Assembly (NCBI GenBank): GCA_037447655.1
Contig: JBBHKE010001973.1
Span: 1,145,954 to 1,209,953, forward strand
Source of the DNA: Zygnema cylindricum
Taxonomy: Eukaryota > Streptophyta > Zygnematophyceae > Zygnematales > Zygnemataceae
Direction of reading: 5' to 3'
DNA length: 64,000 bases
The position numbers and the translations under genes were made by a program. The first letter of the stretch is position 1. Every line of letters begins with the position of its first letter. Below, piece by piece: positions 31,291-64,000 of the stretch. The notes beneath the pieces were generated by a model. The model ran no database searches and had not been told where the DNA came from. It saw only the letters and a program-made list of their open reading frames with translations.

Positions 31291-33640
31291 GTATCATTTG
31301 AGAGGCTAGACGGAGGTCAAAAGGACTTGTTAGTGGACAAGTAGCTCCTCCACATAAGACAGGCCCCTCTGCGGGAGAACCACCTCGCTGTCAAACAGTT
31401 CCGACTGCAACGCAGGTTCTGGGGACTTCACCAGGACCTAGACCGAAATCTCCTCTTCTGCAGGAAAGGGAGGAAACCACAGGGCATAACAAAGAGGGTT
31501 TGGGTGCATATTTGCCTACTGAGTCTGCTAGTGTTCCCCGGGAAGAGCAAACATTGGTCTCTCTAGAGGTGTCTTCTGCTGTGGAGACGTTGGTGCAGTT
31601 ACGACTGGATGAGAGGATTCACATTCCCTTAAGGGCGCCAACACCTCTTTCAACATCCCTCAGAGCATCTCCAAATTTTCCATCTTCTCCTCCTCCTCAT
31701 TTCTCTCACTCCCCGGGTCCCACCACGCAGTCTGGGACTGCCCTTTGCCATCTGTTTCTCCAGCAACCACCGCCTGCGGGTCCTTGGATTCGCCAATTTT
31801 CTTGTACAAGTACGACGTACCCGCCTACTCACCTCCTCACCAACGTTCTCTTTCTTCTAACTCCGGAACTCCACCTCTCGAGACATATAGGAGGCAAACT
31901 AGGAGACCCACGCCTCATTCCTTGAGGGCCCCAACAGTCTCCGTCTCTGTCTCCATCTCCGTCTCCATCTCCGTCTGTGTCACCTTCCATTTCTCAAATA
32001 AAAAATAAACATCGCCATCACATCCCATCGGTGGAGGAATTTTTAAGGGAGGAACAATACGCTCCTAGATATAGAGGAGCCAGAAATCAAACTCCTTCTT
32101 TAACAACAAGACCATCGTTAGTGGGAGGGAGGATTAAAGAAGTTACACCAGCCCGTCCTAGTGGAGGAGGAGGCAGTTCGGATCTCAGAAACACAGATCC
32201 AAGGGTTGTTTCACCGGTTCAATTTGTCAGTCCCACCCGGCCTTCTTCGCCCCCGTTCACCACCCTCGCGAATGAGGAGAAAATGGGTGACTTAAGGATT
32301 TTTACCGAGGACAGTTCGCGGATCGATTTCTCCGATTTTCAACTGTTGTGGAAATCTTTCACGCAATCCGAGATAAACGAGTATAGGGGTGGAGCAATCC
32401 CCGATGACTTTAGAGCTACCCTCTTCCAAATGATGGTCAATTATCTTGTTGGTGGCTCTTTAACAAATTACAAAGAGCGATAACCTCTTTTGTTGGCTCC
32501 CAGGATCAAAATTTCTGACCTTATCGTTGGTGAGGCAGTCTTGGAAGCAGAAGCAAACTTAGCTGCAGCTACAGCCGCTCCTATCACAATCGCCTTCACA
32601 GATGACATGAAACAGCAAGCAAAAGGTTAAGCCTATGTCAACCAGCTTTAGGCAATCTAGGCCGCCAGAGCTGCCACCCGGATGGTTGCACATCCTACAC
32701 CCTGTACTACCATTTTGAACACCTGGAGGCTCTTTTACACTGGAAGGAATGAATCGGCTTTCAAAGAATTTACGGATTTCTGTTGCCAGAAGAGTGAAAC
32801 CCCCAAAACTCTTTTCAACAGATTGTCGAGCCTCTGTCAAAAGACAAAACTATAAACCATTGATTTCTCGGCTATGTCAACCAAATACTTTATCGCGGTC
32901 CGAAACTGGTTCGGACCCACGAGGAAGACTGCCCTCGATAATTGGATTGCCGGACAGGCCATCCAGGATAACAATCCATTCACTAAAGAAATCTCGGTGG
33001 CTGCAATGAAGCTTTACGACCACTTCGTTCATAGAGAGGCCTAAGAGAAGGCGGTAACCGGCAAAACCAAGGGAAACTTTGCAAGATTTGTTGGAGACAT
33101 GCATCCTGACAATGAGGAGTCAGGAAAACTCCTAGCTTTGCGGAACCTTAAGAAGAAAGAGGTGGTGGATAGCGTTTCCGAACCCGCCATGGGGTCCGAT
33201 GACTGCGTCTTCTTGTACAATTGTTTGAATTGTCAACAAACAGGTCATGGATGGAAGCGCTGCCCCCGGAAGCTCAAACCAGAGTTGGCCCTCAAGGTGA
33301 AAGAATGGGAAAAAGAGAGGGCTGAAAGGACCAAGAAGAAGCAGGAAAGGAAACAAGAAGGGGGATCGGAAGACAAAACATCGGTGAACAAGGAAAATTA
33401 CCGTCCGACTCCCCGGTCCGAAACTGCAAAAATGTCACTAGCCCAATTGCGACAAATCAAACTTTTGAAATTTGATGATGCGTAAATCTCCAATAAACTT
33501 AGTGGCAAATACACCACCGAGGGCTCTAACTGTGAGGCTTGTGGTTTCAGGGGTCACAAATAGGGGCAGTGTTTTCGAAAGAATGGGGTCTCAAAGGAGA
33601 TGATGAATATACACTGTTTACCGGCGAAGGTGAAACTGCG
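31291..33640 (+). pseudogene. Gypsy-1 gag (proline-rich N-term, capsid, zinc knuckles)
   Basis: A proline/serine-rich N-terminal region (31500-31925) matches Gypsy-2 55349-54726. The capsid-like part begins MGDLRIFTEDSSRIDFSDF and includes LLWKSFTQSEINEYRGGAIPDDF (32284-32480). A zinc knuckle CLNCQQTGHGWKRC lies at 33228-33269, and a second C/H cluster (CEACGFRGHK) at about 33534-33563. The capsid is cut by at least three stops. Gag would package the RNA of full-length relatives. Confidence 0.78.
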
Positions 33641-33678
33641 GTAAACCCTTTCCCTCTCCAGCTTCTTTACCCTTAGGT

Positions 33679-34560
33679 ATGCTGCACCACAGAAGAACCG
33701 GAACGACAGCCAACAGGTCAAGCAAGACTCACCCCAAAGATTATAATCCAACAGCACAGCCAGCAACTAGCGCCAATGGCTACAGATTTGGCAGCCCTGC
33801 GATAGGAATCTTCCTCCGGACTCGTACTCTACCAACTGCTCTGAAACTCCACCAAAGGAAACACGAGTTACTACAGATGCTGGCGGAGCTTGAACACGAA
33901 ACCGCGGCGGGCGAAGACAATGACGATGTGAAGGGGCGGGACATGGAACCTCCTAAAGCGCATCATGCACAAACCTTTCTTTCAGAAGCCTGGAATGGCG
34001 GCATGGGAGACACTCGCAGGCAGCTTCGTAACTTGACATCGGCGGAGAGAAGAGACAAGCAAAGACTGGCTCAAGGAGACCACAACAGGAAGATCAGTGG
34101 ACCTTTGACCTTCTCCCCCATGGTAGTCATTTTCAACGACAAAATAGGTCTCGGAATCAAACCCATAAAACCTCCTTCCCCAGCGAGGAAGAAATTGCCT
34201 CCCGGATTTGAGAATTACAGGACAACTTACACGTTAAAGATGGAAAAACATGCAAAGGAGGAGGAAAAGCAGAACAACCAAGACAGGTTCAAAAAATATT
34301 TGGCGGAACGTTTAGAGGATATTACACCAGAAACGCCACCAGGATTTTAGAATTACAAGACAACTAACACGTGAAAGATGGAAAAACTTGCATAAAAGGA
34401 GGAAAAACAGAATAACCAAGACTGGTTCGAAAAATATTTGGCGGAACGTTCAGCCAAAAACGCCACCAGAACAAGAATCTGACCACAAAAGTGAGGAAGC
34501 AAGGGGGTGGGAGCACAAAAAACCGGAGGAACTAGCACATTCCCCCATTTTGTCTCATTC
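33679..34560 (+). pseudogene. Gypsy-1 gag C-terminal linker with internal duplication
   Basis: Open at 33679-34350 (223 codons): RRDKQRLAQGDHNRKISGPL, KKLPPGFENYRTTYT and a charged EEEKQNNQDRF helix. A block of about 143 bp (about 34205-34345) is repeated in tandem at 34346-34475 (GF-stop-NYKTTNT...EKYLAERS). Gypsy-2 has a single copy (53043-52700). Confidence 0.75.
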
Positions 34561-34735: not shown

Positions 34736-36142
34736 TACTGAACTTTGTAACCCTCTTTCTCCCGTGTTCATACTTGGATGGCGGCGTATAAATGGGATCG
34801 AGGTATTCTTCTCCGAAAATAGGCCAATGGGACAAGGAAAGTGGCTACTCTTTTGGTAGATTAGGAAACCCTAATTGTTCGTCTTCACCAGCAATGCGGG
34901 CACTTCGGACAAAATAAGACCACCTCACTAGTCACAGGGTTGTCTTAGTGGCATGGGTTTCGGGCCTAGGTCAACCGTGTGGTGCAGACTTGCCCTTCTT
35001 GTGACTGCGTGAAATATGCTTTTGACAGAAAGGGCGGAACGGACCTTCACTCCCTCCTCATCCGGGGGATGTTTTAGAGATGGTCACTAGATATGTTGGG
35101 ACCACTCTTAACCAGCCATAGGGGAAGGCGTTTTGTTCTGATAATGATTGAACACTTCTCCAAATGGATAGAAATGGTGGTTTTTTTCTAGAAGTAGTCG
35201 AAAGCAATTGCGGATGCATTTTTGTAGAGAGTACTATCCCAATTTGGAGCAACGGCTAAAGTTTTGACGGATCAGGGGTCCGAGTTTGTTCGAGAATTTT
35301 CTAACCTTTTAGAGAAGTGCCTCATTGACCACCGGTTTACCAGCCAAGACCATCTCCAAGCCGACGGCTGAGACGAGAGGTGCGTAGAGATAGTGAAGCC
35401 GTCACTACGGAAATATGCAATGGAAGAGGATTTGGGGGAATGGGACAGACGGGTGCCTTGGATTGCCATGGGATATAGGTTCAGTAGACATGCATCCCTC
35501 CACTCTTATAGCCCTTAGTTCATTCTCTTGGGCCGACATCCCATCCTACGTAGAGCTGTAGCGGCTCAGGCGGTTGTGCTTCCGGAGATAGACAATCAAG
35601 GCATTGTAGAGAAATTGATTGCCGACAGGGCCAAGGTATTTCACTGAGAAATGCCTCTGGCTATGGGCAATTTATAGGCTGCTCAACCTAAAGATCTACT
35701 TTGGTATTCCCAACACCGCAGCGGCAATTATATCCCTCGGCAACGGCGACTAGTGATCGGAGATTTTGTAAATTGCATGCATCAAAAGAATGATACTTTG
35801 GACATTTAGGCCGGACGGGTGATTTTGAAAGTAGTGGAGGTCTTTAACAAAGGGGTATTTACCTTGGAAAGGAAAGATGGCGGCAAAATTAAAGAAAATC
35901 CGATCAATGTGGCCCCTTGCCATTTGCGAGGGCTAGAGGATGAACCCACTTTCCACCTCACTTACTTTGCAGACCCGCCATCTTGTTCCTCTGCCTGTGA
36001 TGTGTCCTCCGTACCCAACCTCTTGTTGGTGTGTGAACGCTGCCACCAAGGGTGGCATGACTGCTGCCTATCGCTGAATTGGGATCCCCGCTCTCAACTC
36101 TCAAATACGTGGTTCTGTAGGGATTACGAATTTGGCGGCTAA
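34736..36142 (+). pseudogene. Gypsy-1 integrase with C-terminal PHD-like finger
   Basis: The zinc-binding start LHQQCGHFGQNKTTS...CPSCDCVK is at about 34884-35010. The catalytic core keeps WSLDMLGPL and VLTDQGSEF, but the E block reads ADG-stop-DERCVE. The last 107 codons (35819-36142) are open: a GPY/F-like module (VILKVVEVFNKGVFTLERKDG), then a PHD-like finger with LLLVCERCHQGWHDCCL and NTWFCRDYE. The last zinc Cys is Tyr. Many stops upstream make the protein non-functional. Family integrases insert the element DNA; the finger is expected to bind a histone tail. Confidence 0.82.
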
Positions 36143-43064: not shown

Positions 43065-43189
43065 CTGCAAAAAAAAAAAAAAAAAAAAAAAAATAATAAT
43101 AATAATTTAAGATATAAAATTCAAAATCAAAAAAGAAAACGCAAACACGAGGGGAAAAAATAAAAAAAAATTAAAAAAAATGGTCCCAC

Positions 43190-43500
43190 TGCCTGTCTCT
43201 TTTCCTCCCTCTCTCCTTTCCTCTCTCCTTTCCTCCCTTTTTCTCCCTCGCTCTGCACTACCATGCCTCCCACTGAAGAAGACAAGCTCTCCACTTTCTC
43301 CCTCCCTCCCTCCCATCCCTCGCTCCCTGCCTACCTCCTTTTCTCCTTCCCAACCTCCCTCTTACCTTCCCCCCCCTCCTTCCTACCCTCCCTCCCTCGT
43401 AACTCTCCTACCCTCCCTCCATCCCTCGTAACTCTCCCGCCCTCCCTCCCTCCCTCGTAACTCTCCCTCCCTCCCTCCCTCCCTCTCCCTCCCCCCTCAC
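43190..43500. repeat. CCCT-rich microsatellite in POLA intron
   Basis: Pyrimidine-only tracts (CCTCCCTCCCTC, with CGTAACTCTCC interruptions). ORFs read through it on both strands are low-complexity Pro/Ser or Gly/Arg/Glu and are not genes. Confidence 0.85.
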
Positions 43501-43616
43501 CTCTCTCGACATCCTCCCACTGCATCGTGGATAATTTGGGCACACTCCTCTCTCTCCCCCCCCACCACGCGTAACGTCACATTTCTTGTCCGACATCCTC
43601 ACAGCTCGTCATCGCA
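43501..43616 (-). pseudogene. POLA: DNA polymerase alpha catalytic subunit, exon B (zinc motif 2), disrupted
   Basis: The acceptor CCTGGCAG leads into TGC GAT GAC GAG (CDDE); then GCRTRNVTLRVVG and, one frame over, ERGVCPNYPRCSGRM, ending at the donor GAG|GTGAGG. Plant Pol alpha has the same order: CDDE-G-C, a TRxVxLRV stretch and CPNYPRC. Two faults are visible: an in-frame TGA after CDDEL, and a missing base in a run of eight G. One more G would make the exon 117 bp and restore phase to exon C. This could be a real pseudogene lesion or a homopolymer assembly error. Confidence 0.75.
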
Positions 43617-44010
43617 CTGCCAGGTGGTGCCACGTCATCAGCCAACAAAAGACAAAAAAACATAAAACGACAAAAAATAAAAAACGATAAAAGACAAAAA
43701 ACAAAAAACAAAAAAAGATGAAAAACAAAAAAGGGGAAAAACAAAAAATACAAAAAAAAAGAAAATTGTGAAAAAAAAAGAGAAAAACAAAAAAAAACAT
43801 CCGCAAGAGCCCACCAATCATAGTGTGGATGCTACCAAAACGTACGTCAAAAAAACAAAAAATAAAAAGCAAAAACAAAAGCTCCAAAAGACGCTAAAAG
43901 AAATGTATACAAAAGACTAACAAGAAAGAAACCAAACACAAAAAAAAGGAAAATAAAGAAAAAAACGAACAAGGAAAAAAATAAAAGAGGAAAAAGAAAA
44001 AAAAAGGTAC
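43617..44010 (-). other. POLA intron, T-rich on the coding strand
   Basis: Lies between exon A (donor CAG|GTACCTTTTT) and exon B. About 18 residues expected from plant Pol alpha between LANQ and CDDE are not clearly present. A short non-T-rich island at about 43790-43850 could hold them, but it has no convincing splice sites. Confidence 0.45.
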
Positions 44011-44311
44011 CTGATTGGCAAGCATTTTACCTGTCACAACGGATTCCGTTTCAAAACTGTTTTCTTTGCATTTTGGACAACTCAAACCATCCACGGCCGT
44101 TGTCTCTTTCGGCTTATTAGGCGTTAAACCGTCGGCTTTTGGAAGTGCACTAGAATCTGACGAGGGAGGGAGAGGAGAGGGAGATTTGGTGACATCGATG
44201 GGCTGTTGAGGTTTTAAGGAAGCTTGGGAGATGATGCTTTGGATACCCAGGAAAGGGAATTTGGAGGCACAACTCGGGCAGATGAGAAGGAAAGGATCAC
44301 AATGTCGATAC
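44011..44311 (-). CDS. POLA: DNA polymerase alpha catalytic subunit, exon A (zinc motif 1)
   Basis: An exon of 301 bp, reading RYRHCDPFLLICPSCASKF, then a variable proline/serine linker, DGLSCPKCKENSF and GKMLANQ. Plant Pol alpha has YRDC-x-P-x-x-L-x-CPSC, a variable linker, RCPxC and LANQ. The four Cys of the first zinc site are present. The acceptor GTCATAG (phase 2) and donor CAG|GTACC fit. The exon is fully open, unlike exon B. Upstream exons would lie to the right; none is seen before the TE block at 45 kb, so the gene is either split by a TE-filled intron or a fragment. Confidence 0.85.
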
Positions 44312-45059
44312 CTATGACATTGGTCACGGGTGATAAACATTCAGCATTCCAAAATGGGAAACATAAACTGCTTCGGAAATTGGATGGTGAGAAACATTGG
44401 ATATGGAAGTTTGGCATTGAATACTAGACATTGTACACTGAAAAGATTGGAAATTTGACATTAGTCATCAAACATTATCATCAAAACTTTAAACATTAAG
44501 TGTTGGATATTGGACATTAGACATCAGAAATAAGACATTAAACATAAAGATTGGATATTGGATATTGGAACGTTGGACAAATTGGATAAGGATGCTAGAC
44601 GTTAGAGATTGGAGATTGGACATTAGGCATTTAGACATTTCAAACTGGGAAACGAGTACAGAATGTCAAAAATTAGACATCTGACATTGGACATTCCAAA
44701 GTCGAAGATAGAAATTTTTTGTGGAAAGCGGACATTGAAGATCAATTAAATATTGGACATGTAAAACGTGTGAAAGAAAAACATTGGTCCGTGGAGGCTG
44801 GTCACCGAGTTTGAACATCAGACAATGACAGAAACGGATAAAATTTGAGATATCAGGAAAATAATGAATTTGAGACATTAAATTTGGCCAAACAAATTTA
44901 CACAATAACCATCCTAAAAAGATTACAACTTTCTGTTATCGCGATAAACCATCGATATGGCCAATGACGATATAATGGAGCCATACATCCGTACAGCAGA
45001 ACTTCCAAAAAAGTACGTTATCGGGTTATCAGGAAAAAGACGTCATAAAATCTAGTAGA
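44312..45059. repeat. Non-coding stretch with degenerate GACATTGGA repeats
   Basis: From about 44420 to 44700, ACATTAGACATTGGACATT-like units recur irregularly. The remainder to 45059 shows no gene or LTR that I can identify. It lies upstream of POLA exon A and is probably intron. Confidence 0.6.
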
Positions 45060-46130
45060 AATCACGTAAAAAAAAAAAAACCTTTTTTTTGGGCAAGTTC
45101 AAGGTAAAGCTTACCACTCGTCATCGTCTAGTGTCGATAAAAACTGCCACCCTGGCAGACAAAAACTCTGACTACCTTCACCCCTGTGAAGGCAAGACTC
45201 CCCTGAGTCGATAGCAAAAAGAATCTCTGATTTTGCTCACCTGAGCAGTACGTTATAGAGGGTCAAAGTTGACCTTTTGTACAGAAGCTCTCTGTGAGAG
45301 AGGGTCCTATCTACTAGTTTTTCTAAGTCCTTTCTCTCTCACAAACTCTATGTACTGATGTACGGAGCCAATCATATTGCTCTTCGGTACACAAAAGTAC
45401 AGTTGCCGGTGTACTTTATATACGGACACTGTATGACATGGCCTTAAAGTCGACACATGTCATATCTAAATTCGGTGTTGTAATCCCCGAAGACACCGCG
45501 ATCCAACGTAATTTCTCCACATGTCATCCAATGTGGCGATGACCATAAACCGCCGAGATTCTATTCCGCGATCATGGCTTTCTTCCTGGCCGTCCGATTG
45601 AATGCAAATTTCAATCGAAGCCGTCATAAATACTTGCGCGGTATTTGTTTCATTTAAAGAAACAAATGCACGGTACTCGTTTCTTATAAATACCGTAATC
45701 CGTACTTTTACGTTACTATATCTTTGTATACCGTAACAATTTCAGTTAAATGAATTATCTTAGGTGGAAATGTTTAAATAAATATCAAAACATGTAGTAT
45801 ATAACATTAGATCTAGACTTAATGGATAAGTCTACCGGCTACTTATCCTCGAGTAGGTACGAGGATGAAATCCTAGATGCAACATATATCTTTTTAGTAA
45901 ATCAACCCCTAAAGGTAGATAAACTAATATATTTCCCGTAAAGCTCTGGATAGCCTAGGTAGCCATGGCTCTAGCTTCCTCTCCAATTTCTCAGTGACTG
46001 CGATAAGTGTGAGAGTTGGAGAGAGAAGTTAGAGATAGACTGCCTCGGCTTCTTTCTATATTTTTATTTAGACCTAGAAAATACTTAAAAACATACCATA
46101 AATATCTATAGTAAATAGGTATGGTACTCC
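45060..46130 (-). repeat. Diverged family A-like copia LTR
   Basis: Follows the family A course on the minus strand: GACTCCCCTGAGTC block near 45200, ACATGGCCTTAAAGTCGACACATGTC near 45430, a tRNA-like hairpin GGATAAG/CTTATCC (45823-45847), GCCATGGCT (45963) and AGACCTAGAAAATACT (46070). It is next to the Gypsy-2 LTR-like end. No target duplication was found, so it may be a solo LTR or a truncated element. Confidence 0.65.
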
Positions 46131-47304: not shown

Positions 47305-48878
47305 TTACCCGCCCAATTCACAGTTCCCGCAAAACCATGGACTAGGGGATGGAGAGTGTGGTTCCCACGAGGAGGGGAGACAAGCTGGATGCAAATACTG
47401 ACTGTACTGATTGCAGACAAGGATATCGTGCTGCGGGGAGGAGAGGGTGTAGGATGATGAACATGCAAGAGGATTGGCAAAGTAAGTCAAGTGGAAAGTG
47501 GGTTCGTCCTCCAGTCCTCGGAGATAGCATTGGCCACATTGATCTGATTTTCTTTAAATTTTCCACCATCTTTTCCCTCCAAAGTCTGAACTCCCTTGTT
47601 GGAATCTTTCACCACTTTCAAAATCACCCGCCGGGCAGAAATGTCAAGCGTATCCTTTTTATGTTGCATTCGATACACAAAGTCTTCCGGCATAAATCGT
47701 CGTTGTCAAGGCACATATTCTCTGCTCCGGCGGTGGGAATACCACAATTGATCCCGGTGTTATGCCGCCTGCAAATTCCCCATGGCGAGAGGTATCTCCC
47801 GGTAGAAAATTTTCGCACAGTCGACGATCAATTTTTCGACGGTTCTCTTGTCATCCATTTTCGGGAGGACCACTGCTTGGGCCGAGGCATCCCCGGGAAG
47901 AATGGGATGTCGTCCGAATAAAATGAAGTAAGGGATGTAGGAGTCGAGGGAGGCTTGCCGGCTAAACCTGTACACCATGGCGATCCAAGGCACCCTTCTA
48001 TCCCACTCTCCTATATCCTCTTCCACAACATATTTGCGCAGTGACCGTTTCACTGTCTGTATGCATGTTTTGGCCAAACTGTCGGCTTGTGGGTGATCTT
48101 CGCTGGTAAGGCGGTGGTCGATGAGGCACAATTCCAACAAGTTGGAGAATTCTCCCGCAAATTCGGAGTTCTGGTCTGTCAAAACTTCGGTTGGGGCCCC
48201 AAATTGGGACAACACTCTCTGCAAGAATGCGTTCGCAATCGCTTTGGACTCCTTCCGAGGTAAGACCACCAATTCGATCAACTTGGAAAAATGCTCTATC
48301 ATTACCAATACAAAGCGGTTCTCTCGTCTGCTGGTGGGGAGAGGACCCAGCAGATCCAGAGACCACCGATAAAACATTCCCTTGATTGGTAGGGAATGAA
48401 GCTGGGTGTCTCTATTTTTGTTGAAAGCTGCTTTAACGCGGTCACTGGAAGAGCACGTCTGCATAATCCGGTTGACTTGGGTCCGCAACCCGTGCCACCA
48501 GTACGATCGTGTGACCAGGGAGGTGGTCCGTTTCTGCCCAAAATGACCACATTGTTGGTGGAGGCGAAAAATAAGAGTCTCTCTATCACCCGGAGGAGGA
48601 ACCACTTTCCTCGTACCGTCTGCCCATTTTCGGATTAAAATGCCTCGCTCCCACACGTACGCCCCCATTTGTCTTTGAACGCGAGATAACTGCATTCCAG
48701 GCAAATGGGAAAGAGGAGAACCTTGTTGGATAGATTGGAGGGCGTCGGGATCATTCCAAATATCCTTACGCCCGGCTCCTATTGGTGCTTCCCCCTCCAT
48801 GTCTACTGAGAAAGTTGACAATTCCCCCCCAGATTGAGGAAGCCAAATAAAGGCAGAGGATGCTCGAATGAGTCCCAA
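47305..48878 (-). pseudogene. Gypsy-2 integrase with C-terminal PHD-like finger
   Basis: A 372-codon open stretch (48878-47760) covers the end of RNase H, the zinc region (LHQQCGHFGQKRTTS...TCSSSDRVK, second Cys lost) and the catalytic core. The core has WSLDLLGPLPTS, VLTDQNSEFAGEF and DHPQADSLAKTCIQTVKRSL, where the catalytic Glu is Lys. After a frameshift the GPY/F-like module continues (47693-47490), then the finger: DILVCNQYSQYLHPACL and PWFCGNCELGG (about 47400-47310). It keeps H, C and the last C-x2-C, but two other Cys are Tyr or Ser. It inserts element DNA in active relatives. Confidence 0.85.
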
Positions 48879-49654: not shown

Positions 49655-50368
49655 TCAGAGTACAATCTGTATGTGCTCCAAATGTTCCTCGAAAGTCTTT
49701 AAGAAGATAATAACATCGTCGATGTAGCACGGTGCATAGTCAATTCCCCAGAGCGCCTCGTCCATGGCACGTTGGAATTTGGCTGGTGCATTCTTTAGCC
49801 CGAATGGCATGTAAAGCCATTCATACAACTTGGACCCCGCCCAAAACTTTGTCCTTTCGTGGTGCCTTGGCTCCATTGCGATCAGGTGGAACCCATTTTT
49901 CATGTCCAATGTGGAATAAATGGTGGCCCCGGCCAGGGAATCGAAAATCTCTTCTGGAGTAGGCATTGGGTATCGGTCAGGTATGGTTGCTATGTTAAGC
50001 ATCCGGTTGTCTCCACACATTCGAAAGTCTACCGTTTTCCCAGACGAGTCTTTCTTGGGAAGAAGAACGGTTAGGGACGCAAATCCATGGAGTCTATTAC
50101 TTTCCTGCACCAATCCTGCTTCCACCAAGGTTTGTACCTTTGTCGTGATAAATTCCTTTTCCTTGAAGCTGAGCGGGTATTGCTTCTGCCAAACAGTAGC
50201 TGTCTCGTCTATTAAATCGATCCAAAAGGGGGTCCTTTTGTAGATGCCGACGTCGGTGTCTGACCAAGAGAACACCTGTTTGTTCTTCTCCAACAGGTTG
50301 GAGAGCCGGGCCTTTTGATGAGGGTCCAATTGCTCCCCTAAGGTCCAATCCATCTTCGCGGGTTCCAC
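49655..50368 (-). pseudogene. Gypsy-2 reverse transcriptase
   Basis: 237 open codons: SDTDVGIYKRTPFWIDLIDE, then LPKKDSSGKTVDFRMCGDNR, ATIYSTLDMKNGFHLI, YEWLYMPFGLKNAPAKFQRA and the catalytic CYIDDVIIF. The palm motifs are all present, so this stretch could still fold. Its N terminus (WTLGEQLDPHQKARLSNLL) joins directly to the methyltransferase side through about 300 bp with stops. It copies element RNA into DNA in the virus-like particle. Confidence 0.88.
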
Positions 50369-50699
50369 TGCTGCCCAAGCCTATGGGGGTCTACCCCAGC
50401 GAGAGATATCAAATTCCAACCCTACCTGTGGGTCTACTTCCCCTCCTCCTGTCAGATTGTTGCTGCTAACAACTTCCGCTAAACTGTCCCCTTTCGAGCC
50501 TCCGCTCCCCCTCACTGAGGAATCCTTTGATTTGGGTGAAATGTTGGGAGTTGAAAATTTTGATGATAAAATCTATCTCCTTGCTACCCTCCCCCCCTCA
50601 AGCTGCAAGTTGTCTTGTACTGCTATCAATTGTGGAGCTTAAAGGTAGCTAGCTTTTGACTGGGAGACTGTATGCTAGAAAAGGCAAAGGCATGTTTGA

Positions 50700-51630
50700 T
50701 TACCTAAGTGATTGCATTGAGATCCATGCTCTGTCCGAGAAGGCTGCACCTATTGAGGTTTGAAATACATGGTGCGTTGTGTCAGGTTGGAATCCCATTG
50801 CTTGTTCTCGTTCTTTCATCGTTGGTGTGGTCCAAACTCCAATTTTGCTGTCGAATATCATTCCGGCTGCTCCTTTGCGATACGCATGGCTATTGGGGAA
50901 GGAAACCAAGGTTGGCAAAGCTTGCCGAGGTGCCCCAGGTTGGTTGCACCAGAAGAACGGAGGTCGATCAGCCTTGGTAATTGGAGTGGCCATCCGCCCT
51001 GGCCATAGTATTTGTTGCAGAGTAATCTAGGGATCTGTCTTATGGTTCTGTAAGAGTTGGTTTAGGACTGAGATAGGTATCAAGTTGGTCCAATACGTCC
51101 GAACTCTGTGAGCCCTAGATCCCATTTGCGGTGCATTGAAAACAAGTGGAGCTCCTAGAATTTGCTTGACTTAATTCCAGCTACGGGCGACCTGTTTTCT
51201 TTTGTTATCTCCGGGTGAACATTTTCCAAAACGTACTCCACTGGTGTGTCTTGGGACTGCTGCAGCAAGGAAATTAAATTGATCATCTAGAAGAAGGTTT
51301 GACTTCTGCTGTCTTGATGCCCCTCGCCTTTCCCTGCTAGAGAGTATCCATGACACGGCCATCTTGCTATTACCACATCTACTCGCTCTAGTATAGCTAG
51401 ATGAGGTTTCAAGATATTGTCTATATTTTTTGGAAGGCTTCGGTGAGATCTGCTTATGGCGAATACTGGAAGTTGCTGGGGATACAATTGGTGGAGCTGT
51501 TGTAGTCGGTGTTCACTGACGACCCGAGCCTCGAGGAGATTTCCACGGCCACATAAGACTCCATTTTATATCCTGCTTTCAATACAGCCTCTAGGTTTGA
51601 GCTAATTCCAGAATATAAGGATAATATCCG
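50700..51630 (-). pseudogene. Gypsy-2 DNMT3-like C5-cytosine methyltransferase
   Basis: Lies between protease and RT. Motif I is RILSLYSGISSNLEAVLKAG (about 51630-51571), followed by YVAVEIS. Motif IV is VDVVIARWPCHGYS with the catalytic PC (about 51380). Motif VI is YVLENV (about 51245). Motif IX-like KEREQAMGFQPDTT is near 50790, and a motif X-like DRAWI near 50715. The order fits DNMT3/DRM-type enzymes with motif I first. At least two frameshifts and several stops break it. The fold would add methyl groups to cytosine in DNA with SAM as donor. Gypsy-3 has a better copy. Confidence 0.85.
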
Positions 51631-51834
51631 GAGACTAATATTCGGGATTGATAATGACACCACTTGTCGATGGAATGTTTGATTCTCGGGTGGAACCTCC
51701 GAAGGTTCTATGCGAGGTGTTTTCTCTTTGGCAAACACAGCTGTGAAGGATTGGTCCACTTCCCGCCAAAGTGTTGCTATTTGTCTTAATCTGCTCTGGT
51801 ATCACTTTTCCCACCGCTTGGAAATAGGGAATTG

Positions 51835-51837
51835 CTA
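51835..51837 (-). promoter_or_regulatory. Candidate readthrough stop (TAG-CAA-TTC) in Gypsy-2
   Basis: The reading is DIADVI-stop-QFPIS. The stop is at the same site as TAA in Gypsy-3, and the codons around it differ mostly at third positions. TAG followed by CAA-TT resembles the tobamovirus leaky-stop context. Confidence 0.6.
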
Positions 51838-53043
51838 TATCACGTCTGCGATATCTGTGGCGCTGGCGAGTAGTTCTGTCGGAGTGTGGGTTGCATAGAC
51901 AGGATAACATCCGGCTACGAGAGCATTGTTTTTCACCCGATTTCATAGATCCAGGGGGACCACCACCTTAATCCCTTCCGGATCCTCAAGATCCCGAACA
52001 GGAAACTATTCCTTCCACACTTTTAATTCCATATTCAACCTGGTCCAGGTGGCTTTTCCCAACAGAATTTTAAACTGCTATCCTTCCACCCCCAAGAAAA
52101 GAAGCTGAATTTGGACCTTCTGACCCGAGTCATCGAAGAACTCGATTAACATAGCTTTGATTATTCCATCAACGCGCTGGCTCCCACTGCTAACAGTGCT
52201 TAGGCAGATGTTATTGGGGCAGATTTTCGGTCAGAGTTCTTCAGGGATTTGTTGCAGAGCCGATGTGGTAATTAGATTTGGGAGTGCTCCGGTATCGACA
52301 ACCGCGTCCTGATATCCGCTAAATCTTTTGAGTTTGAAATTTCCCGTTCGATTGAGTATTAGCGCCACAGATAACGTTTTATAATCCTTATCCGTTATAG
52401 GTGTCTTTGGGTCTGCTGACCAAAAGACGGATCTGGCCTGATTGGCTCGATCTTTATTCTCCCCCCCTGAGTGAATCTCCACTCCGAGGGCCTGGATGAG
52501 AATTTCTTCCGGCAAGTTATAGGATGATGCTAGTGTTTTCACGTGAGTGAGGGCGTAGGGCATTAGATGCCTTACTAACATCAGTGCTGGTTTGGAGGAA
52601 GGGGGTTGAGTTTTGGGCGACGAAATGGGGGAATCTGCTAGTTCCTTCGATTTTTCTTGCTCCCCACCTTTAGTTTCCTCACTTTCCTGGTCGGTTTCCT
52701 GTTCGGTTGGCGTTTTGAGTGTGGTATCTTCAAGACGTTCAGCCAAATATTTTTCGAACCAGTATTGGTTGTTCTAGTTTTCTTCCTTCTTTGCTTGTTT
52801 CTTCATCGCCGTGGTGTTAGTTGTCTTGTAATTCTCGAATCCGGGAGGCAATTTCTTTGCGGCTGGAGGTGACGGGTTTGTGGGTGTCATTTCGAGGCCT
52901 ATTTTGTCGTTTAGGATGACTGCGCAGGGGGTGAAGGACAAAGGTCCACTAGTCTTCCTGTTGTGGTCTCCTTGAGCTAGTCTTTGCTTGTCTCTTCTCT
53001 GTGCCCATTTTGAGTTACGAAGCGGCCTCCGACTGTTTCTCAC
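51838..53043 (-). pseudogene. Gypsy-2 gag tail and aspartic protease
   Basis: Gag tail: RRDKQRLAQGDHNRKTSGPL and KKLPPGFENYKTTNT (53043-52774). Then a 171-codon stretch (52746-52231) ends in the protease: DAVVDTGALPNLITTSAL with the DTGA active site (about 52300-52260), followed by CLSTVSSGSQRV and the flap/ILLG part (about 52050). It cleaves the polyprotein in active relatives. Stops follow at about 52230, 52080 and others. Confidence 0.83.
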
Positions 53044-57723: not shown

Positions 57724-59109
57724 CACGCAAATCAAAAGTTCAAACCCCCATTTCACACTGCCCACAAAACCAAGGTCGGCCAAGTTGGTCTCGACCTGCC
57801 CAATCCTTAGGTAAGCAAGAAGAATGCCAACCTCGAGTGCATGCCCAGATAATAAAATGTTTGTAGTTTCGTAACGAAGGGCACACATGTGAGAATTAGA
57901 ACAAATGGGAGGAGAGGGAAAATAAGTGAAATGTAATGTTGGCTCGTCCTCGAGCCCTTGAAGGTGGCAAGGAGCCACATTAATTTGATTATCTTTGAAT
58001 CTCTTGCCGTCAGCCCCTTCCAAAGTTAACACTCCTTTAGGGGAAACCTCAACCAACTTCAAAATAATCCGGCCCGCAGAAATATCCAAAGTATCATTTT
58101 TCTGCCGCATCCGATAAACAAAATCCCCGGGCTGAAAACGTCGTTGTCGAGGAACATAAGAGCCACTCCTACGGTGGGAATACCAAAGTTGATCTCTGTG
58201 TTGGGCCGCTTGCAAATTGCCCATAGCTATCGGAATCTCCCGATGAAAAACCTGCGCTCGAGCGGTAATTAGTCTTTCCACTGTCCCTTTACTATCCATC
58301 TCCGGTAAGACAGTGGCTTGGGCCGAGGCAGATCCTGGGAGAATAGGATGCCTACCAAACAACATAAAATAAGGGCTGTGACTGTGGAGAGATGCCTGTC
58401 TACTAAACCTATAGCCCATAGCAATCCAAGGCACCCTTCGATCCCAATCCCCCACATCCTCCTCGAGTGCATATTTTTGGAGTGCTCTCTTGACTGTTTG
58501 GACACAACGTTCGGCTAACCCATCAGCTTGAGGATGATCTCTACTAGTAAGTGGGTGATCAATCAAACATTGCTCCATCAAAGTCGAAAAATCCCCAGCA
58601 AATTCGGAACCCTGATCGGTTAAAACTTCCGCGGGGGCCCCAAACTGAGCAAGCACTCTCTGTAAAAAGGCATCGGCCACGGACTTAGACTCTTTCCGAG
58701 GTAACACCACGAGCTCAATCCACTTAGAAAAATGCTCTATCATCACAAGCACGAAGCGGTTTCCTCGTCGACTAGTCGGAAGAGGCCCTAGCAAGTCTAA
58801 TGACCAACGGTAAAACATTCCCCGGATGGGAAGAGAATGTAATTCGGCACCACCTTTCTTGTCAAAGGCCGCTTTCACTCGATCGCATGTTAAGCAGGCT
58901 TGAACAACTCGATTCACTTGTGCTCGAATTCCATGCCACCAATAAGATGCTGCAACCAAAGAAGCGGTACGCTTCTGACCGAAATGATGACATTGCTCAT
59001 GGAGGTTAGTGACTAAGGTTTCTCGATCACCTGTTGGTGGAACTACCTTCCTAACGCCATCCAGCCAAACCCTTAAGAGAACCCCCCTATCCCAACTGTA
59101 AGCTGACAT
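57703..59109 (-). CDS. Gypsy-3 integrase with PHD finger (finger frameshifted)
   Basis: 468 open codons. Zinc region: H37, H41, C72, C75 (NLHEQCHHFGQ; CLTCDRVK). Catalytic D105 (WSLDLLGP), D165 (VLTDQGSEF) and E200 (DGLAERCVQTVKRAL) give exact D,D35,E spacing. A GPY/F-like module (ILKLVEVSPKGVLTLEGADG) lies near residues 350-375. The finger follows near residue 400: MCALRYETTNILL in this frame, then the remaining ligands in a neighbouring frame (CTRGWHSSCL and RPWFCGQCE, about 57820-57750). One small indel separates the halves. This integrase inserts the element DNA; no chromodomain is present. Confidence 0.9.
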   Translation of the reverse strand: MSAYSWDRGVLLRVWLDGVRKVVPPTGDRETLVTNLHEQCHHFGQKRTASLVAASYWWHGIRAQVNRVVQACLTCDRVKAAFDKKGGAELHSLPIRGMFYRWSLDLLGPLPTSRRGNRFVLVMIEHFSKWIELVVLPRKESKSVADAFLQRVLAQFGAPAEVLTDQGSEFAGDFSTLMEQCLIDHPLTSRDHPQADGLAERCVQTVKRALQKYALEEDVGDWDRRVPWIAMGYRFSRQASLHSHSPYFMLFGRHPILPGSASAQATVLPEMDSKGTVERLITARAQVFHREIPIAMGNLQAAQHRDQLWYSHRRSGSYVPRQRRFQPGDFVYRMRQKNDTLDISAGRIILKLVEVSPKGVLTLEGADGKRFKDNQINVAPCHLQGLEDEPTLHFTYFPSPPICSNSHMCALRYETTNILLSGHALEVGILLAYLRIGQVETNLADLGFVGSVKWGFELLICVLLKTRT

Positions 59110-59130
59110 CCTCTGTAGAACTCTAACTTT

Positions 59131-60042
59131 CTAGATCCCCTCTAAATAAGGTAAAATTGACCCTTGCTGAATGGATTTCAAGGTGTCTAAATCATCATAA
59201 ATGTCAACCCTGCCAGCTGACAATGGGGCCTGCCCTTCCACCTCTGCCCCTAATGCAAAAAGTTCCCCCTCTTTTCTAGGAAGCAAAGAGAATGCTGTGG
59301 CTGCCATAACCATTCGAACCCCCAAAATAGGATCCTCATCGTACCTTGCTCCAGTTGCATCAACAGAAGATGGATCGGGGTTTCTGCTAGGACCATCTGC
59401 ATTACCATGGGTCTCACCAGCTCGGTGAATTATATCAAAATCATACTCTTGCAATATCAAAGCCCATCAAGCAAGTTTCCTTGTAAGATTACTATTCTCA
59501 TTATCCATTTCAAAGGTTGGTGATCGGTGATGAGGGTGAAACGAACGCCATAAAGATAGGGTCGGAAGTGTTGGATGGCCCAAACAGCTGTCAGAAGCTC
59601 CCTATGTTAATTGCTATAAGAGGCCTCCGCCTTATTGTTGCTCCGGCTCGCATAGGCCACTACGTATTCGGCTCTTGAATCATCAAGCTGAGCTAATATG
59701 GCCCCTAATCCGAATCTACTCCAATCAGTGTAAAGAATAAATGGTCGAGAATGGTCTGGCATACGAAGAATCGGACTTTCTTTAAGCGCATTCTTCAAAA
59801 ATTGGAATGCCTCTTCTTGTTCTTCCTTCTATTGCCACTCTTGATCTTTCCTTAAGAGTAAATTGAGGGCCTGAGCTTGGCTGCTAAACTCTGGAACAAA
59901 TCGTCTATAATAGTTAGCTAACCCTAAAAATGTGCGGAGTGAAAAACATCTGTAGGAGTTGGCAACGCATCCAAGGCGGCGTCTTTGACCATATGTGGAG
60001 TTGGCAACGCATCCAAGGCGGCGTCTTTGACCATATGTGGAC
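59131..60042 (-). pseudogene. Gypsy-3 RNase H and RT connection
   Basis: RNase H begins NALKESPILRMPDHSRPFIL and YTDWSRFGLGAILAQLD (59798-59607; the D of YTDWS is the usual first catalytic Asp). It ends LQEYDFDIIHRAGETHGNAD (59460-59385). The frame changes between the two. A 42-bp unit is duplicated in tandem at 59956-59997 and 59998-60039, in the RT/RNase H connection. Confidence 0.84.
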
Positions 60043-60136
60043 CTATAGTCCCAGGGGTAACCTCATGTCCCAAATAAAAAATTTTGTCTACCCCGAATAT
60101 ACCTTTACTTGGATGACACTTTAAGCTTGCCGCCCT

Positions 60137-60840
60137 CTAAGCATCAAACACCATTTGTAAATGAAGGGGGTGATATTCCAAATTGTTAGAAAAAATGATC
60201 ACGTCGTCAATATAACACCGAGCACATTCAATCCTTCGTAAAGCATCATCCATTACTCGTTGGAACTTTGCGGGTGCATTTATCAATCTAAAAGGCATAT
60301 AAAGCCACTCGTATAATCTGTTACCTGCGAAAAATGCTCTCCTCTCTCGATGCTTAGGTTCCATTGGCACTTGGTGAAATCCTGCTTCAAATCCAAGGTA
60401 GAATATATAGTTGCTCCAACCAAAGCATCAAATATTTCTTCAGGAGTGGGTATAGGATACTTGTCCAATATAGTGGCTTCATTTAACATTCGATAGTCTC
60501 CACACATTCGGAAGTCTACAGTCTTCCCTGTAGAATCTTTCTTCGGAGGAAGTACAGTTGGGGAGGCAAACCCATGAAGACCAGTGCTTTCCTGTACTAA
60601 TCCTGAATCAACCAATCTTTGGACTTTCTCTTTCACAAATTCTTTCTCCGAGTGGCTCAAAGGATATTGCTTTTGCCACACTGTCGTTGATTCGTCGACT
60701 AAGTCAATTCTAAATGGTGTGCCCTTGTAAATCCCAACATCTGTATCAACCCACGAAAACACATCCCTATTCCTTCCCAATAGATCCACAATTCTAGACT
60801 TTTGGCTCTCCTCTAACCGTTCTCCAATAATCCAATCCAT
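60137..60840 (-). pseudogene. Gypsy-3 reverse transcriptase (one frameshift)
   Basis: The first part is open at 60840-60283 (DTDVGIYKGTPFRIDLVDES, PPKKDSTGKTVDFRMCGDYR, ATIYSTLDLKQDF). After one frameshift near 60375, PKHRERRAFFAGNRLYEWLY and the catalytic CYIDDVIIFS follow (60370-60137). The start is in frame with the methyltransferase upstream. It copies element RNA to DNA. Confidence 0.88.
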
Positions 60841-61149
60841 CTTTCCCGGTTCTACAGCTGCAAAACTCTTCGGTGGCCTCGTCCACTAGGACGGATCAAA
60901 CTCGTCCCCCCCCAACCCCTTTGCTCTATCTCCTTCCCGTAACACCCTACTAGACACCCACAAAACATCCTCTACCTTATGCACTTGCTTCTCTCTTTCT
61001 TTTGGTCCCCCCTCCTTGGATTTTTGTTGTCGGATCTTTTGATGAATTTTTCTATCTCTCCCCCCCCCAAGCGCTAGTGTGACTTGTATAGCCACGCGAG
61101 CTGGAGCTTGTAAAAATGAAGTGCGATGCTGGTGAGAATGCAAAGGACC

Positions 61150-62110
61150 ATGAGATAGTGTAAGACCAACTAACCATTGTAATGCGTGTAAATCCATAGC
61201 TTGGCCAATCAAACGGCAACGAGTTTCAAGGGAGGGATTAGGAGCGACAGTAGTATTGGTGCGAAAACCCATGGCTTGTTCTCGTTCATTGATATTGGGC
61301 ACATCCTATTTTTTTTTTATTAGTGTCAAAGATAATGCCAGGGGAACCTAAACGATAACAAGACTCCGAGGAAATGAAACTAGAGTGGGGAGTGCGTATT
61401 TTGGTTGACCAGATTTGTTGCAGTCAAAAAATAGATGTCGAGATGTAGATGTGACAGGAGTAGCTGTAGAGCCTTTGTCTAAAATCTGATCGACGGTGAG
61501 GTTTGGCGGACACTTTTGTAATCCCACGACGGCCTTTAATAGTGGAAGAGGAGCAAGATTAGTCCAATATGAGCGAAGACGGAAAGCACGAGACCCCATC
61601 TGAGCTGCATCAAATACTAAAGGTTCCCCAAAATCGTGAATTGTCTCCTGCCAAGCAGTAACTACCTTACTACGTTGATCCGCACCAAGGAAGACATTTT
61701 CCAACAAGTATCCCAACGGCTTATGTTGATGTAGTTGTAAAAGGTTGAGGATAAAAACCATTTGATAAAATAAACGACTCCGAGTGTCACTATTTCCCCT
61801 TCCTTTCCTTGCATGAGAATATCCTTGACAAGGCCAACCAGCTATCACTAAATCTACCCCCCCCAAATCTCGGATATCTTATGAAGTAATTAAGTCAACA
61901 TTTTGTGGGAGTCGATGATGAGATTGTGAAATAGCAGATACAGGTAATTGGAGAGGGTACAATTGGTGAAGCTCTAACAGTTGAAATTCACTCGCTGCCC
62001 GAGTTGAAGATGAAATTTCCACGGCCCAATAACTTCTAATCTGGTGGCCGTTCATCAGTATAGCGTCTAAATCCGTACTAATGCCAGAAAACAAAGAGAC
62101 TACCGTAAAC
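61150..62110 (-). pseudogene. Gypsy-3 DNMT3-like C5-cytosine methyltransferase
   Basis: Embedded in pol between protease and RT, same frame register. Motif I is VVSLFSGISTDLDAILMNG (about 62103-62047), with YWAVEIS giving the motif II acidic residue. Motif IV is VDLVIAGWPCQGYSHARKGR, catalytic Cys at 61828-61830. Motif VI is YLLENVFLGAD. Motif VIII is GSRAFRLRSYWTNL. Motif IX is EREQAMGF, and motif X is RCRLIGQAMDLHALQW (ends about 61160). These resemble DNMT3/DRM enzymes. The faults are one TAA before motif IV, and a frame change with a poly-A run between motifs VIII and IX. Retrotransposon DNMTs are known from charophytes and dinoflagellates, where de novo CG methylation was shown. Activity here is inferred only for intact relatives. 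Confidence 0.92.
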
Positions 62111-62340
62111 CCTGCCGGTTCTGGTGTCAAATGAACCACCTCTCGAGGAAGTGGCGTCAAAATCTGCCCTTGAACAAAATGTCGAAATTCGGTTCTTCTT
62201 TTGGATACATTTGTCGAACAAGGTAATGTCTTCTCATCTATCAAATTATTGAACACTTTTTAATGACCTCGTCTCAAAGAAGCCGCTACCTCCAATATCC
62301 GTTTGTGGGATTCATCCCACTCAGCGGAGATCGGAAATTG

Positions 62341-62343
62341 TTA
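62341..62343 (-). promoter_or_regulatory. Candidate readthrough stop (TAA-CAA-TTT) in Gypsy-3
   Basis: DIAPFI-stop-QFPISAEW. Same position as the TAG of Gypsy-2, between protease and methyltransferase. Confidence 0.6.
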
Positions 62344-62846
62344 TATAAAGGGGGCAATGTCGGTGGATTCATCCTCCGATTCAATGGAAAATTTAGAAGA
62401 ATGAATTGAAGAAGCATTGCTATTGTAGACTAGGTAGCAGCCTGCCGCCGCTTCTTGGGAATGATGACGTCCCCACAAAGTGAGAGGGACAAAAACGCGG
62501 TGAGCGAGTGAAGTTGACAAATCCCTAATGCAGATTTGCTCGCTCCAAAAATCTACCATAGCTCCCAATCATGACCATGTATGGGTTCCCAATAAAATTC
62601 CAAACTGATTTCCCTCCACCACAAGAAAAGGGAGACGAATAGAAATTTTTTGACCTGCATCATCTCCAAATTCGATATCCATACCCTTCACCATGCCAAA
62701 CACTAGTTGATTACCACTACTAACCGTGCTTAGGCACACCTTACTAGAAAATACTTTCGGCCTACAATTGGGTGGCAATTTCTCCAAAGCACTAGTAGAG
62801 ATAACGTTAGGAAGGGCCCTAGTATCCACCACGGTTTGGAGGAAAC
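62344..62846 (-). pseudogene. Gypsy-3 aspartic protease and linker
   Basis: Before the solo LTR is removed it starts VVDTRALPNVISTSALEKL; the active-site triad D-T-G is D-T-R here, while Gypsy-2 has D-T-G. KVCLSTVSSGNQLVFGMVKG and FLVVEGNQFGILLGTHTW follow, as in retropepsin-like Ty3/gypsy proteases. A TAG at about 62566 and then a linker (62568-62341) lead to the candidate readthrough stop. Confidence 0.83.
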
Positions 62847-63585
62847 TGTTGTTTTTTAGAAAGCTTTAGTCCTCTTTATGCCTCAGCTGTGAGAGAGAGC
62901 TGTTCGGGACTTAAGCTATTTTTGGTTGAGTTCGGTTCTGTACTTACCGGAATTAGTGTGACAGTGAAGTTGGGAGTTCACGGTTCATTCACACTTGGGA
63001 CACGTGTCGTCACTTGGGAGAATGCGTGAGTATGTCCTCCGTGGACGTACGGAAATTCGGCAGGACCACTGGACTTCGTGAAGTCAATTCTACGGTGCCA
63101 AATCCTCTAATCGGACCGCTGACAGCCGCCGCCAACAAATAGTGACGAGGCATGACTAGATCATTATCACTTTACGTTGTCTGAACTTCGGTGTAAATAT
63201 TTGTGATAGAATATTAGACGTACGGCTGGAATGCCTCCGTACAGCTTAGTGTAGTTTCGGTGTATAAAAGTAGGACTTAGTGAATTTGATTTTTAGGAAC
63301 AAATGATATGAAAACTGTACACTCAATTTTATGTAATTTCATTTCTACATATCTCACAGATGTGTAAGCGGAATTAATTGAAATTTTGTGTGTGTGTTTC
63401 TTTGTATGTTATCTACATTGTGGCAAATTTTCAGGACATTTGGAGCATTTTTCCGAAAGTTATAGTCTGTCAAAGTTTCTGTTCAGCCATCGGTATTTGT
63501 GGAAGCTTCCTCTCTTGATTTGTTCTACGATGACTACTGCTGCATCTTCTTCATCTTCATTACCAGCACTTGTCTCAGAACAACA
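62847..63585 (+). repeat. Solo LTR, family B, inside Gypsy-3 protease
   Basis: 739 bp, starting TGTTGTTTTTTAG and ending GAACAACA, with a perfect GAAAC duplication (62842-62846 and 63586-63590). Removing it restores the reading INGFGGF-LQTVVDTRALP. An ATG at 63530 opens MTTAASSSSSLPALVSEQQ to the LTR end. Confidence 0.92.
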
Positions 63586-64000
63586 GAAACCACCGAAACC
63601 ATTAATCTTAAAGTGTCCAGAAGAGTTACCAATATATGCAATTGCCAAAGAAGAGTAATCCATATCCGCAATTGGAACCTTCGCAGCGCTACTAAAACTG
63701 GAATCGGAATAAGAAATGGGTGCTCCAAAAGCATCTGTGGATGTCACCCTGCCGGTGATCTTAGATCTTAATGCCGAAATGAGTTCTTCATCCGAAATTT
63801 GATGGGTGTTAGCAAACGTGCAAACTAACTCTATAGAGTGTGGGATGAGAAGATCCACTAACATGGCGAAAGGCCGAGACGGTGGGATGGGCGGATCTGA
63901 TTTCGAAGTAGGATGAGAATCCACCTGAGTGGTGAGAGGAGGAGTGAAAGAGTCGTCCGGTTTGTCTTCAGTGGTCTCTGGTGAGGAGGAATCAGCGGTT
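63586..64000 (-). pseudogene. Gypsy-3 gag C-terminal part (partial)
   Basis: Open from the 64-kb edge region: PSRPFAMLVDLLIPHSIELV, then DMDYSSLAIAYIGNSSGHFK, joining the protease after the solo LTR. It matches Gypsy-2 52600-52310 (MLVRHLMPYALTHVKTLASS; KDYKTLSVALILNRTGNFKL). The N-terminal gag is outside the window. Confidence 0.8.

Follow-up and report, generated by a model that had tools for sequence, protein, structure and literature searches.

A retrotransposon family with a DNMT3-like methyltransferase in Pol, a conserved UAG stop ahead of it and a predicted PHD finger behind the integrase

Retroelements that carry a cytosine-5 DNA methyltransferase (DNMT) have been known since 2018 (de Mendoza et al., PMC5890265), and a survey from 2025 placed some DNMT3 members of streptophytes and dinoflagellates within retrotransposon structures (PMC12344493). 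The closest known relative of the family reported here is KnitGypsy-Dnmt3 of Klebsormidium nitens. Judging from the main text of PMC5890265, the two share an unrearranged DNMT3-type domain in a Gypsy Pol, with the catalytic residues kept and under purifying selection, and both have A-coding-B-A-B repeats like those of DIRS elements, yet Gypsy-type enzymes; the layout in KnitGypsy-Dnmt3 was said to be “the same as that of a DIRS retrotransposon.” The Ka/Ks of KnitGypsy-Dnmt3 was < 0.2 (PMC5890265), compared with medians of about 0.2 to 0.4 here, and the genome of K. nitens is 104 Mb (PMC11096116), compared with 352.8 Mb in 2,689 contigs here. When the Klebsormidium enzyme was tested in yeast, no methylation was seen, a result that the authors called inconclusive (PMC5890265). 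Two elements of Symbiodinium, SymbioDIRS-Dnmt3 and SymbioLINE-Dnmt, are also retroelements with a C5 methyltransferase, but they are a DIRS element (with a tyrosine recombinase) and a LINE, whereas the present family has a DDE integrase; the authors regarded them as independent captures, and de novo CG methylation was shown for SymbioDIRS-Dnmt3 (PMC5890265). A preliminary description of the present locus had mentioned retrotransposon DNMTs from charophytes and dinoflagellates, with de novo CG methylation in the latter. The term “PHD” is absent from the main text of PMC5890265, and in the literature that we searched (mostly open-access text), no description of a conserved stop or a PHD finger in a DNMT retroelement was found. 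We consider these to be features added to an already known kind of element; the comparison with KnitGypsy-Dnmt3 was made with the main text, and the Klebsormidium elements may share both features.

Chromoviruses carry a chromodomain after the integrase, at the place where the PHD finger sits in this family. The two groups thus resemble each other in having a histone-reader domain at the integrase C-terminus, which here is a predicted PHD finger instead, and the present family has a DNMT in addition. In some retroelements, a same-frame stop separates gag and pol, and Pol is made, or is proposed to be made, by readthrough of that stop, as is suggested here; murine leukaemia virus and the rice gypsy element RIRE2 (as cited in PMC2754532) are examples. 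The present family differs from such elements in that its stop resembles the tobamovirus type I signal in all but the last base (PMC3542737), and in that the first domain of Pol is a DNMT.

The window, i.e., the whole stretch of 64,000 nucleotides of Zygnema cylindricum DNA that was analyzed, contains three copies of the family (A, B, and C), the features of which are listed in Table 1. In copy A, the stop-free piece of the methyltransferase (61878-61348, minus) matched Pfam PF00145 (DNA_methylase) with an E-value of 4.2e-11, over the Pfam cut-off. The same piece matched the PDB chains of HaeIII (2.8e-5) and DNMT3A/3B (about 2e-4), and NCBIfam dcm at 7e-12, which is under that model's own cut-off. 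Translation gave the segments VVSLFSG (about 62100), GWPCQGYS, and LLENV in the N-terminal half, and QMGSRAFRLRSYW, EREQAMGF, and LIGQAMDL (ending at about 61161) in the C-terminal half, which we take to be motifs I, IV, VI, VIII, IX, and X, respectively. The order from I to X is canonical and unrearranged. The domain carries an in-frame TAA, which was not seen in any of the 12 other same-frame copies for which the stop list is complete, and a frameshifted segment. No Pfam match was obtained for the protease region of copy A, and the homologous protease ORF at the locus C1374 matched Asp_protease_2 at 2.1e-4, under the cut-off.

Table 1. Features of the three family copies in the window (positions in the 64,000-nucleotide stretch)
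Feature	Position	Strand	Evidence or remark
Copy A end of gag, upstream of the protease and truncated at the window end	63586..63999	minus	contiguous with the protease in copy B (52692-52312, then 52320)
Copy A aspartic protease region, DTRA (DTGA in copy B)	62572..62865	minus	56% identical to copy B
Copy A stop between protease and DNMT, UAA CAA UUU	62341..62343	minus	occupies the position of UAG CAA UUC, which is conserved in the family
Copy A DNMT3-like C5 methyltransferase domain (motifs I to X)	61161..62112 (approximate ends)	minus	Pfam PF00145, three-frame translation
In-frame TAA inside the copy A DNMT (decay)	61879..61881	minus	translation
Copy A frameshifted DNMT segment, between motifs VIII and IX	61306..61390 (approximate)	minus	translation, by-eye comparison with copy B
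Copy A reverse transcriptase, frameshifted	60140..60885	minus	72% identical to copy B on 60885-60286
Copy A RNase H	59460..59828	minus	Pfam RT_RNaseH_2 3.9e-23 on 59828-59610; rest by similarity to copy B
Copy A integrase (H2C2 and rve)	57906..59130	minus	Pfam 4.6e-14 and 5.3e-12
Copy A PHD finger remnant, frameshifted, after the integrase	57746..57905	minus	tblastn with intact copies
Copy B protease	52042..52320	minus	similarity
Copy B conserved UAG CAA UUC between protease and DNMT	51835..51837	minus	pattern alignment
Copy B DNMT domain, several stops and frameshifts	50690..51669	minus	similarity to copy A
Copy B reverse transcriptase	49661..50398	minus	Pfam RVT_1 8e-19 on 50380-49655
Copy B integrase	47466..48683	minus	Pfam and similarity
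Copy B PHD finger, partly decayed	47308..47465	minus	tblastn
Copy C gag-like ORFs	31302..34350	plus	ORFs, comparison (likeness to copy B by eye)
Copy C integrase with stops	34763..35980	plus	similarity
Copy C PHD finger, reading on from the integrase	35981..36139	plus	Pfam PF00628 7.1e-5, at 23.2 bits just short of the cut-off (24)

Copy B lies on the minus strand at roughly 56.3-46.3 kb (ends not fixed), and its DNMT is 49% identical to that of copy A and occupies the same place in the element. Since the domain recurs at that place in copy B and across the genome, it is more than a chance match, and its E-values likewise rule this out. Copy C (plus strand, roughly 31.3-37.2 kb) is silent on the presence of a DNMT because everything from the protease to the RNase H, for which nothing was found after the gag-like ORFs, is missing there; both RT-bearing copies, A and B, carry the domain. 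The preliminary description thus holds in most respects: the motifs are in canonical DNMT order, the domain lies between the protease and the RT and is not a chance neighbor, this copy has one stop and one frameshifted segment, the element is of the Ty3/gypsy type (RT, RNase H, and rve were found in that order), and copies without the domain, which had been named as contrary evidence, are not found among the two RT-bearing family copies of the window. Its claim of a single frame register for protease, DNMT, and RT stands as far as the frame is concerned, but stops separate the protease from the DNMT in copy A. It missed the conserved stop, the PHD finger, and copies B and C.

Copy A is a broken, dead member of the family, as indicated by the TAA and the frameshift in its DNMT, the frameshifted RT, further stops, and approximately 0.7 kb of extra sequence. 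This extra sequence (window about 62851-63585) splits the pre-protease region from the protease and is probably a later insertion; a 67-base stretch of it shows a 79% match to the window at 20.6 kb. A tandem duplication of about 42 bases is also present downstream of the copy A RT (window 59960-60050).

To place these copies in the family, we searched the genome with the 176-aa DNMT piece of copy A. There were 1,327 first-look candidates, and the best 150, which were scored, all reached an E-value of 1e-46 or lower; of the top 30 matches (the query's own locus included), 22 were stop-free in the matched stretch. We studied 51 copies, i.e., 50 loci (L030-L059 and L070-L089) and copy B, which are the best matches to copy A and not a random sample. 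Within flanks of about 1.5 kb, a protease was found upstream of the DNMT core in 41 of the 51 and an RT downstream in 42. At C1374, a single open frame of 1,520 aa comprises DNMT, RT, RNase H, integrase, and PHD finger, and the domain order at C544 is the same. Additionally, P0065, the sole protein returned by a longer protein search (JGI contig, 4.6 kb), joins a DNMT that is 52% identical to that of copy A to an RT in one 685-aa frame. The DNMT is, as the preliminary description had proposed, a domain of the polyprotein, and the order of the element is gag - protease - UAG - DNMT - RT - RNase H - integrase - PHD finger. The family comprises two subfamilies, the DNMT cores of which are 52-57% identical; copy B belongs to the second, with an RT 89% and a DNMT 68% identical to those of L051.

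The sequence UAG CAA UUC stands between the protease and the DNMT. Two patterns were used to read this site, both of which fixed CAA; the first left the third codon free and the second excluded TTA. With the first pattern, the exact TAGCAATTC was found at the expected distance from the DNMT core in 39 of the 51 copies (29 in frame and 10 with intervening indels), three copies had the variants TAACAATTT (copy A), TAGCAATTG, and TAGCAAATC, and nine of the 51 were unreadable; TAGCAATTA was not among the contexts, although any third codon was allowed. In the alignment made with the second pattern, in which 39 of the 51 copies were readable, 38 had TAG as the stop and copy A had TAA; no sense codon occurred at the site, even though the pattern admitted CAG, CAA, and TGG. 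The Phe after the stop was encoded by TTC in 37 of 38 copies, while the next Pro used all four codons and the next Ile two. Protein conservation was high on either side of the stop (DIA..I * QFPIS..WE). Among the first 30 loci, 24 had both protease and DNMT; these shared a frame in 15 of the 24, and in 8 the UAG was the sole stop from the protease to the DNMT core. The consensus of type I readthrough signals is UAG CAR YYA (PMC3542737), which UAG CAA UUC fits in five of six bases, the last being C where the consensus has A. It therefore falls outside the strict, tobamovirus-like type I class, and may work like a member of it. UAG is not a general sense codon, because the 1,520-aa Pol frame contains no UAG and decayed copies of the family show UAA, UAG, and UGA stops. 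Given that the conserved context resembles type I stops and that UAG has no general sense meaning here, the stretch from the DNMT through RT and RNase H to the integrase is probably made by readthrough, with the DNMT as its first domain. Single in-frame stops were also observed between two gag ORFs at L060 (C1374 23132-23134) and L067 (C1100 86739-86741); a conserved stop in gag was rejected, as the two loci differ in both stop and context.

Directly behind the integrase tail, we found a C4HC3 finger (CSSAC..VCERCHQGWHDGC..PWFCGDC) in which the zinc ligands and the W two residues before the last pair are present. Its first ligand pair is wider than usual, i.e., CxxxC, or C-x5-C in the first subfamily. 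The Pfam E-values for PHD were 7.1e-5 in copy C, 0.003 at C1374, 3e-4 at C544, and 2e-4 at C161, and all of these matches were under the gathering score (18 to 23.2 bits against 24). By tblastn of the window and L060-L069, the finger was located in nine places in both subfamilies: copies A, B, and C in the window, L061, L063 (two), L064, L066, and L069; L061 also has a 22-residue fragment.

The repeat structure was examined at five fetched loci. Long terminal repeats of 1,186 bp (97.8% identical) at C1374 and 1,229 bp (96.0%) at C1100 were found, with K2P distances of 0.021 and 0.035, respectively; the loci C161 and C928 had 993 bp (86.8%) and 485 bp of repeat (87.0%), and none were found at C544. 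At C1374 and C1100, the arrangement is A1-coding-B1-A2-B2: the A repeat (1.2 kb) is at the element start and again near the end, the B repeat (0.2 kb) flanks the second A, and B1, A2, and B2 are contiguous. This layout is partial at C928, with A alone at C161 and neither repeat at C544. A G-run lies just ahead of B1, the element ends are TGTC...GACA, and GACAGCTGTC is within the B1/A2 junction. Neither C1374 nor C1100 showed a target-site duplication at its ends. DIRS membership was rejected, as scanning of the Pol frames with Pfam found no tyrosine recombinase and instead rve and H2C2; protease, RT, RNase H, and DDE integrase occur in the order of Ty3/gypsy elements. At C1374, the B-repeat region (31308-31632 and 35349-35679) has an extra copy directly after pol, and approximately 3.7 kb of further sequence lies between this extra region and the second A repeat.

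The kind of methyltransferase was examined by scoring a profile built from copy A and 17 collection proteins (18 rows) against the solved C5 methyltransferases. For the element METHYLTRANSFERASE, the best scores were with DNMT3A (8.6e-17), DNMT3C (5e-16), and DNMT3B (8e-16), and the scores outside DNMT3 were 4.2e-8 for HaeIII, 5e-7 for HhaI, 1e-6 for 4onj (listed as “DNA methyltransferase,” which we take to be tobacco DRM), 4.8e-5 for DRM2, and 5.5e-4 for DNMT2. No row named DNMT1 or CMT was among the 60 matches listed up to E 10. The enzyme is DNMT3-like by profile, as was first proposed, with DNMT3A the best match among the solved enzymes listed; a DRM type was ruled out, as the motifs are unrearranged. 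In a tree of 52 rows, which gave a long-branch warning and in which less than half of the columns are occupied in the DNMT3 rows, a 90/90 branch had the element DNMTs, P0001-P0018, and P0065 on one side, and three vertebrate DNMT3 segments and 14 collection proteins on the other. In this unrooted and partly unresolved tree, with only three short PDB segments, the element DNMTs are not inside vertebrate DNMT3, and the two subfamilies do not form one clade on their side, where the fork is unresolved. AlphaFold2 modeling of P0001, an uninterrupted relative, gave a mean pLDDT of 89 and a pTM of 0.89. The JGI name of P0037 and P0038 is DNA (cytosine-5)-methyltransferase 3A, yet they form a clade apart from the vertebrate DNMT3 segments, and this label may mislead. 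C5 methyltransferases of phages (114 phage records) belong to the same Pfam family, but with 25-39% identity among the 15 records listed, they are far more distant than copy B or P0065, and their annotation shows no RT joined under the match.

Selection was assessed by pairwise Nei-Gojobori dN/dS, with pairs of dS 0.05-1.5 considered usable. In the second subfamily (31 copies, leaving out L048 and L078, which have intermediate identity), the median dN/dS was 0.200 for the protease (147 of 351 pairs usable), 0.208 for the DNMT core (190 of 465), 0.241 for the whole DNMT (189 of 465), and 0.241 for the RT (152 of 371). Two RT pairs had dN/dS ≥ 1, and no protease or DNMT pair did (0 of 190 for the DNMT core). 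In young pairs (dS 0.02-0.15), the values were 0.333 for the DNMT core, 0.314 for the whole DNMT, 0.320 for the RT, and 0.313 for the protease. The first subfamily (17 loci with copy A), which is more decayed, gave 0.40 for the DNMT core, 0.43 for the N-terminus, 0.42 for the RT, 0.09 for the protease, and 0.63 for the C-terminal DNMT piece (motifs IX-X and linker); 12 second-subfamily copies in the same pass gave 0.106 for the DNMT core and 0.157 for the RT. Between the subfamilies, synonymous sites were mostly saturated. In the second subfamily, WPC (with the catalytic PC) was present in 31 of 31 copies, ENV in 30 of 31, and the FSG of motif I in 23 of 31. The DNMT core is therefore held as firmly as the RT, under purifying selection; a ratio near 1, which the preliminary description had named as contrary evidence, is not what these medians of about 0.2 to 0.4 indicate.

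Copy A is a dead member of a multi-copy Ty3/gypsy family that has a DNMT3-type enzyme as the first domain of Pol, and we consider it reasonably probable that this Pol is made by readthrough, that the enzyme methylates the element's own cDNA or insertion, and that the PHD finger guides insertion. Most ribosomes would halt after the protease and a minority would read through UAG CAA UUC, which would yield a Gag-PR-DNMT-RT-IN-PHD fusion. Because only this proposed minority would read through, the methyltransferase would enter the particle at low, RT-like amounts, and it would then be freed by the protease. With less certainty, it could act on the double-stranded cDNA or a fresh insertion, which we infer to be its likely role, and the PHD finger on the integrase tail might read histone H3 and steer insertion. 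Several observations weigh against this picture: the unremarkable CpG composition of the DNMT copies, the yeast result for the Klebsormidium enzyme, the C at the last base of the stop context, the loss of FSG in some copies, the higher dN/dS of the C-terminal piece in the first subfamily, the position of the element DNMTs outside vertebrate DNMT3 in the tree, and the lack of a visible target-site duplication in two copies. All this presupposes a leaky UAG. That it is instead a sense codon under an altered code of the host, or that Pol arises from a separate start or a spliced RNA, we consider quite improbable: reassignment to sense was rejected, as UAG is absent within long frames such as the Pol frame and the decayed copies show all three stops. 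Furthermore, because protein conservation continues up to and past the stop in one frame, a fusion fits rather than a restart. That the captured gene is a mere passenger is suggested by the broken DNMTs of copies A and B in the window. However, its dN/dS is in the same low range as those of the protease and RT, and this holds for young pairs as well (0.333, compared with 0.320 for the RT); both subfamilies retain the DNMT even though their cores are just 52-57% identical; the dN/dS in the main refutes this reading, which seems to us highly improbable.

What the enzyme acts on allows two further readings. The DNMT, together with the PHD finger, might have host DNA, or chromatin at or close to the place of insertion, as its main substrate rather than cDNA in the particle, thereby making a tolerated or hidden niche. 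The PHD finger follows the integrase in both subfamilies, at the place taken by the chromodomain in chromoviruses, and shares one Pol frame with the DNMT, both of which are consistent with such a role, but the protease is expected to part the two domains and the PHD matches are just under the Pfam cut-off; we regard this reading as rather unlikely. The domain might also be a nucleic-acid-binding or RNA-methylating part, with DNA methylation not its main job. Motif X of C5 methyltransferases usually has an Asn, and that of copy A is without it. The related Klebsormidium domain also left yeast DNA unmethylated, inconclusively according to the authors (PMC5890265). Against this, the catalytic PC and ENV are kept almost throughout the second subfamily, and DNMT3 is the best profile match, with DNMT2 far weaker, so a role of this kind appears improbable. 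We also put forward, tentatively and as rather unlikely, that Pol as a whole marks chromatin, with a methylation writer at the N-terminus and a PHD reader at the C-terminus supplied at a low dose via one leaky stop, so that insertions would be placed by histone state and methylated at once.

If this last proposal were true, the parasite would install its own epigenetic mark and not wait for the host. Cytosine methylation is a main host weapon against such elements (PMC5890265), and despite this, the family has retained a methyltransferase, on which selection is as strong as on the RT. The present data contribute many copies from a further genome, a conserved stop that probably serves to set the dose, and a paired putative histone reader, and they suggest that the Klebsormidium element does not stand alone. 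The question of why a transposon would methylate DNA becomes testable through cDNA methylation, insertion sites, and the PHD ligand.

Composition gave no clear sign of a special methylation history in the DNMT copies. Their CpG observed/expected ratio (0.66-0.71) equals that of other sequence in the window (0.66-0.72), and a search of the coding parts for a CpG-depletion signature was negative. The LTR pairs of two copies differed from each other, with values of 0.76 and 0.76, and 0.49 and 0.60, and of the substitutions between LTRs, only 2 of 25 and 6 of 42 were CpG-type changes. The tRNA and Rfam scans of the window gave no hit, and no repeat pair of at least 60 bases was found in the window at 44-64 kb. 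By eye, window 1-30000 and 37100-46000 contain copia-type-looking fragments (gag and gag-pre-integrase-like ORFs). Outside this genome, the 176-aa DNMT piece found none of 58 candidates in the protein collection at 1e-5, and a two-copy DNMT profile gave 64 hits. Two scans of viral contigs yielded 6 and 23 loci, distant relatives only (26-51% identity in the best segment), and three others yielded no locus. P0002-P0018 are relatives of the element DNMTs on public contigs of up to 52 kb, in several deep lineages; among these and P0065, an RT joined to the DNMT was shown for P0065 alone. More DNMT retroelements may exist in uncultured organisms.
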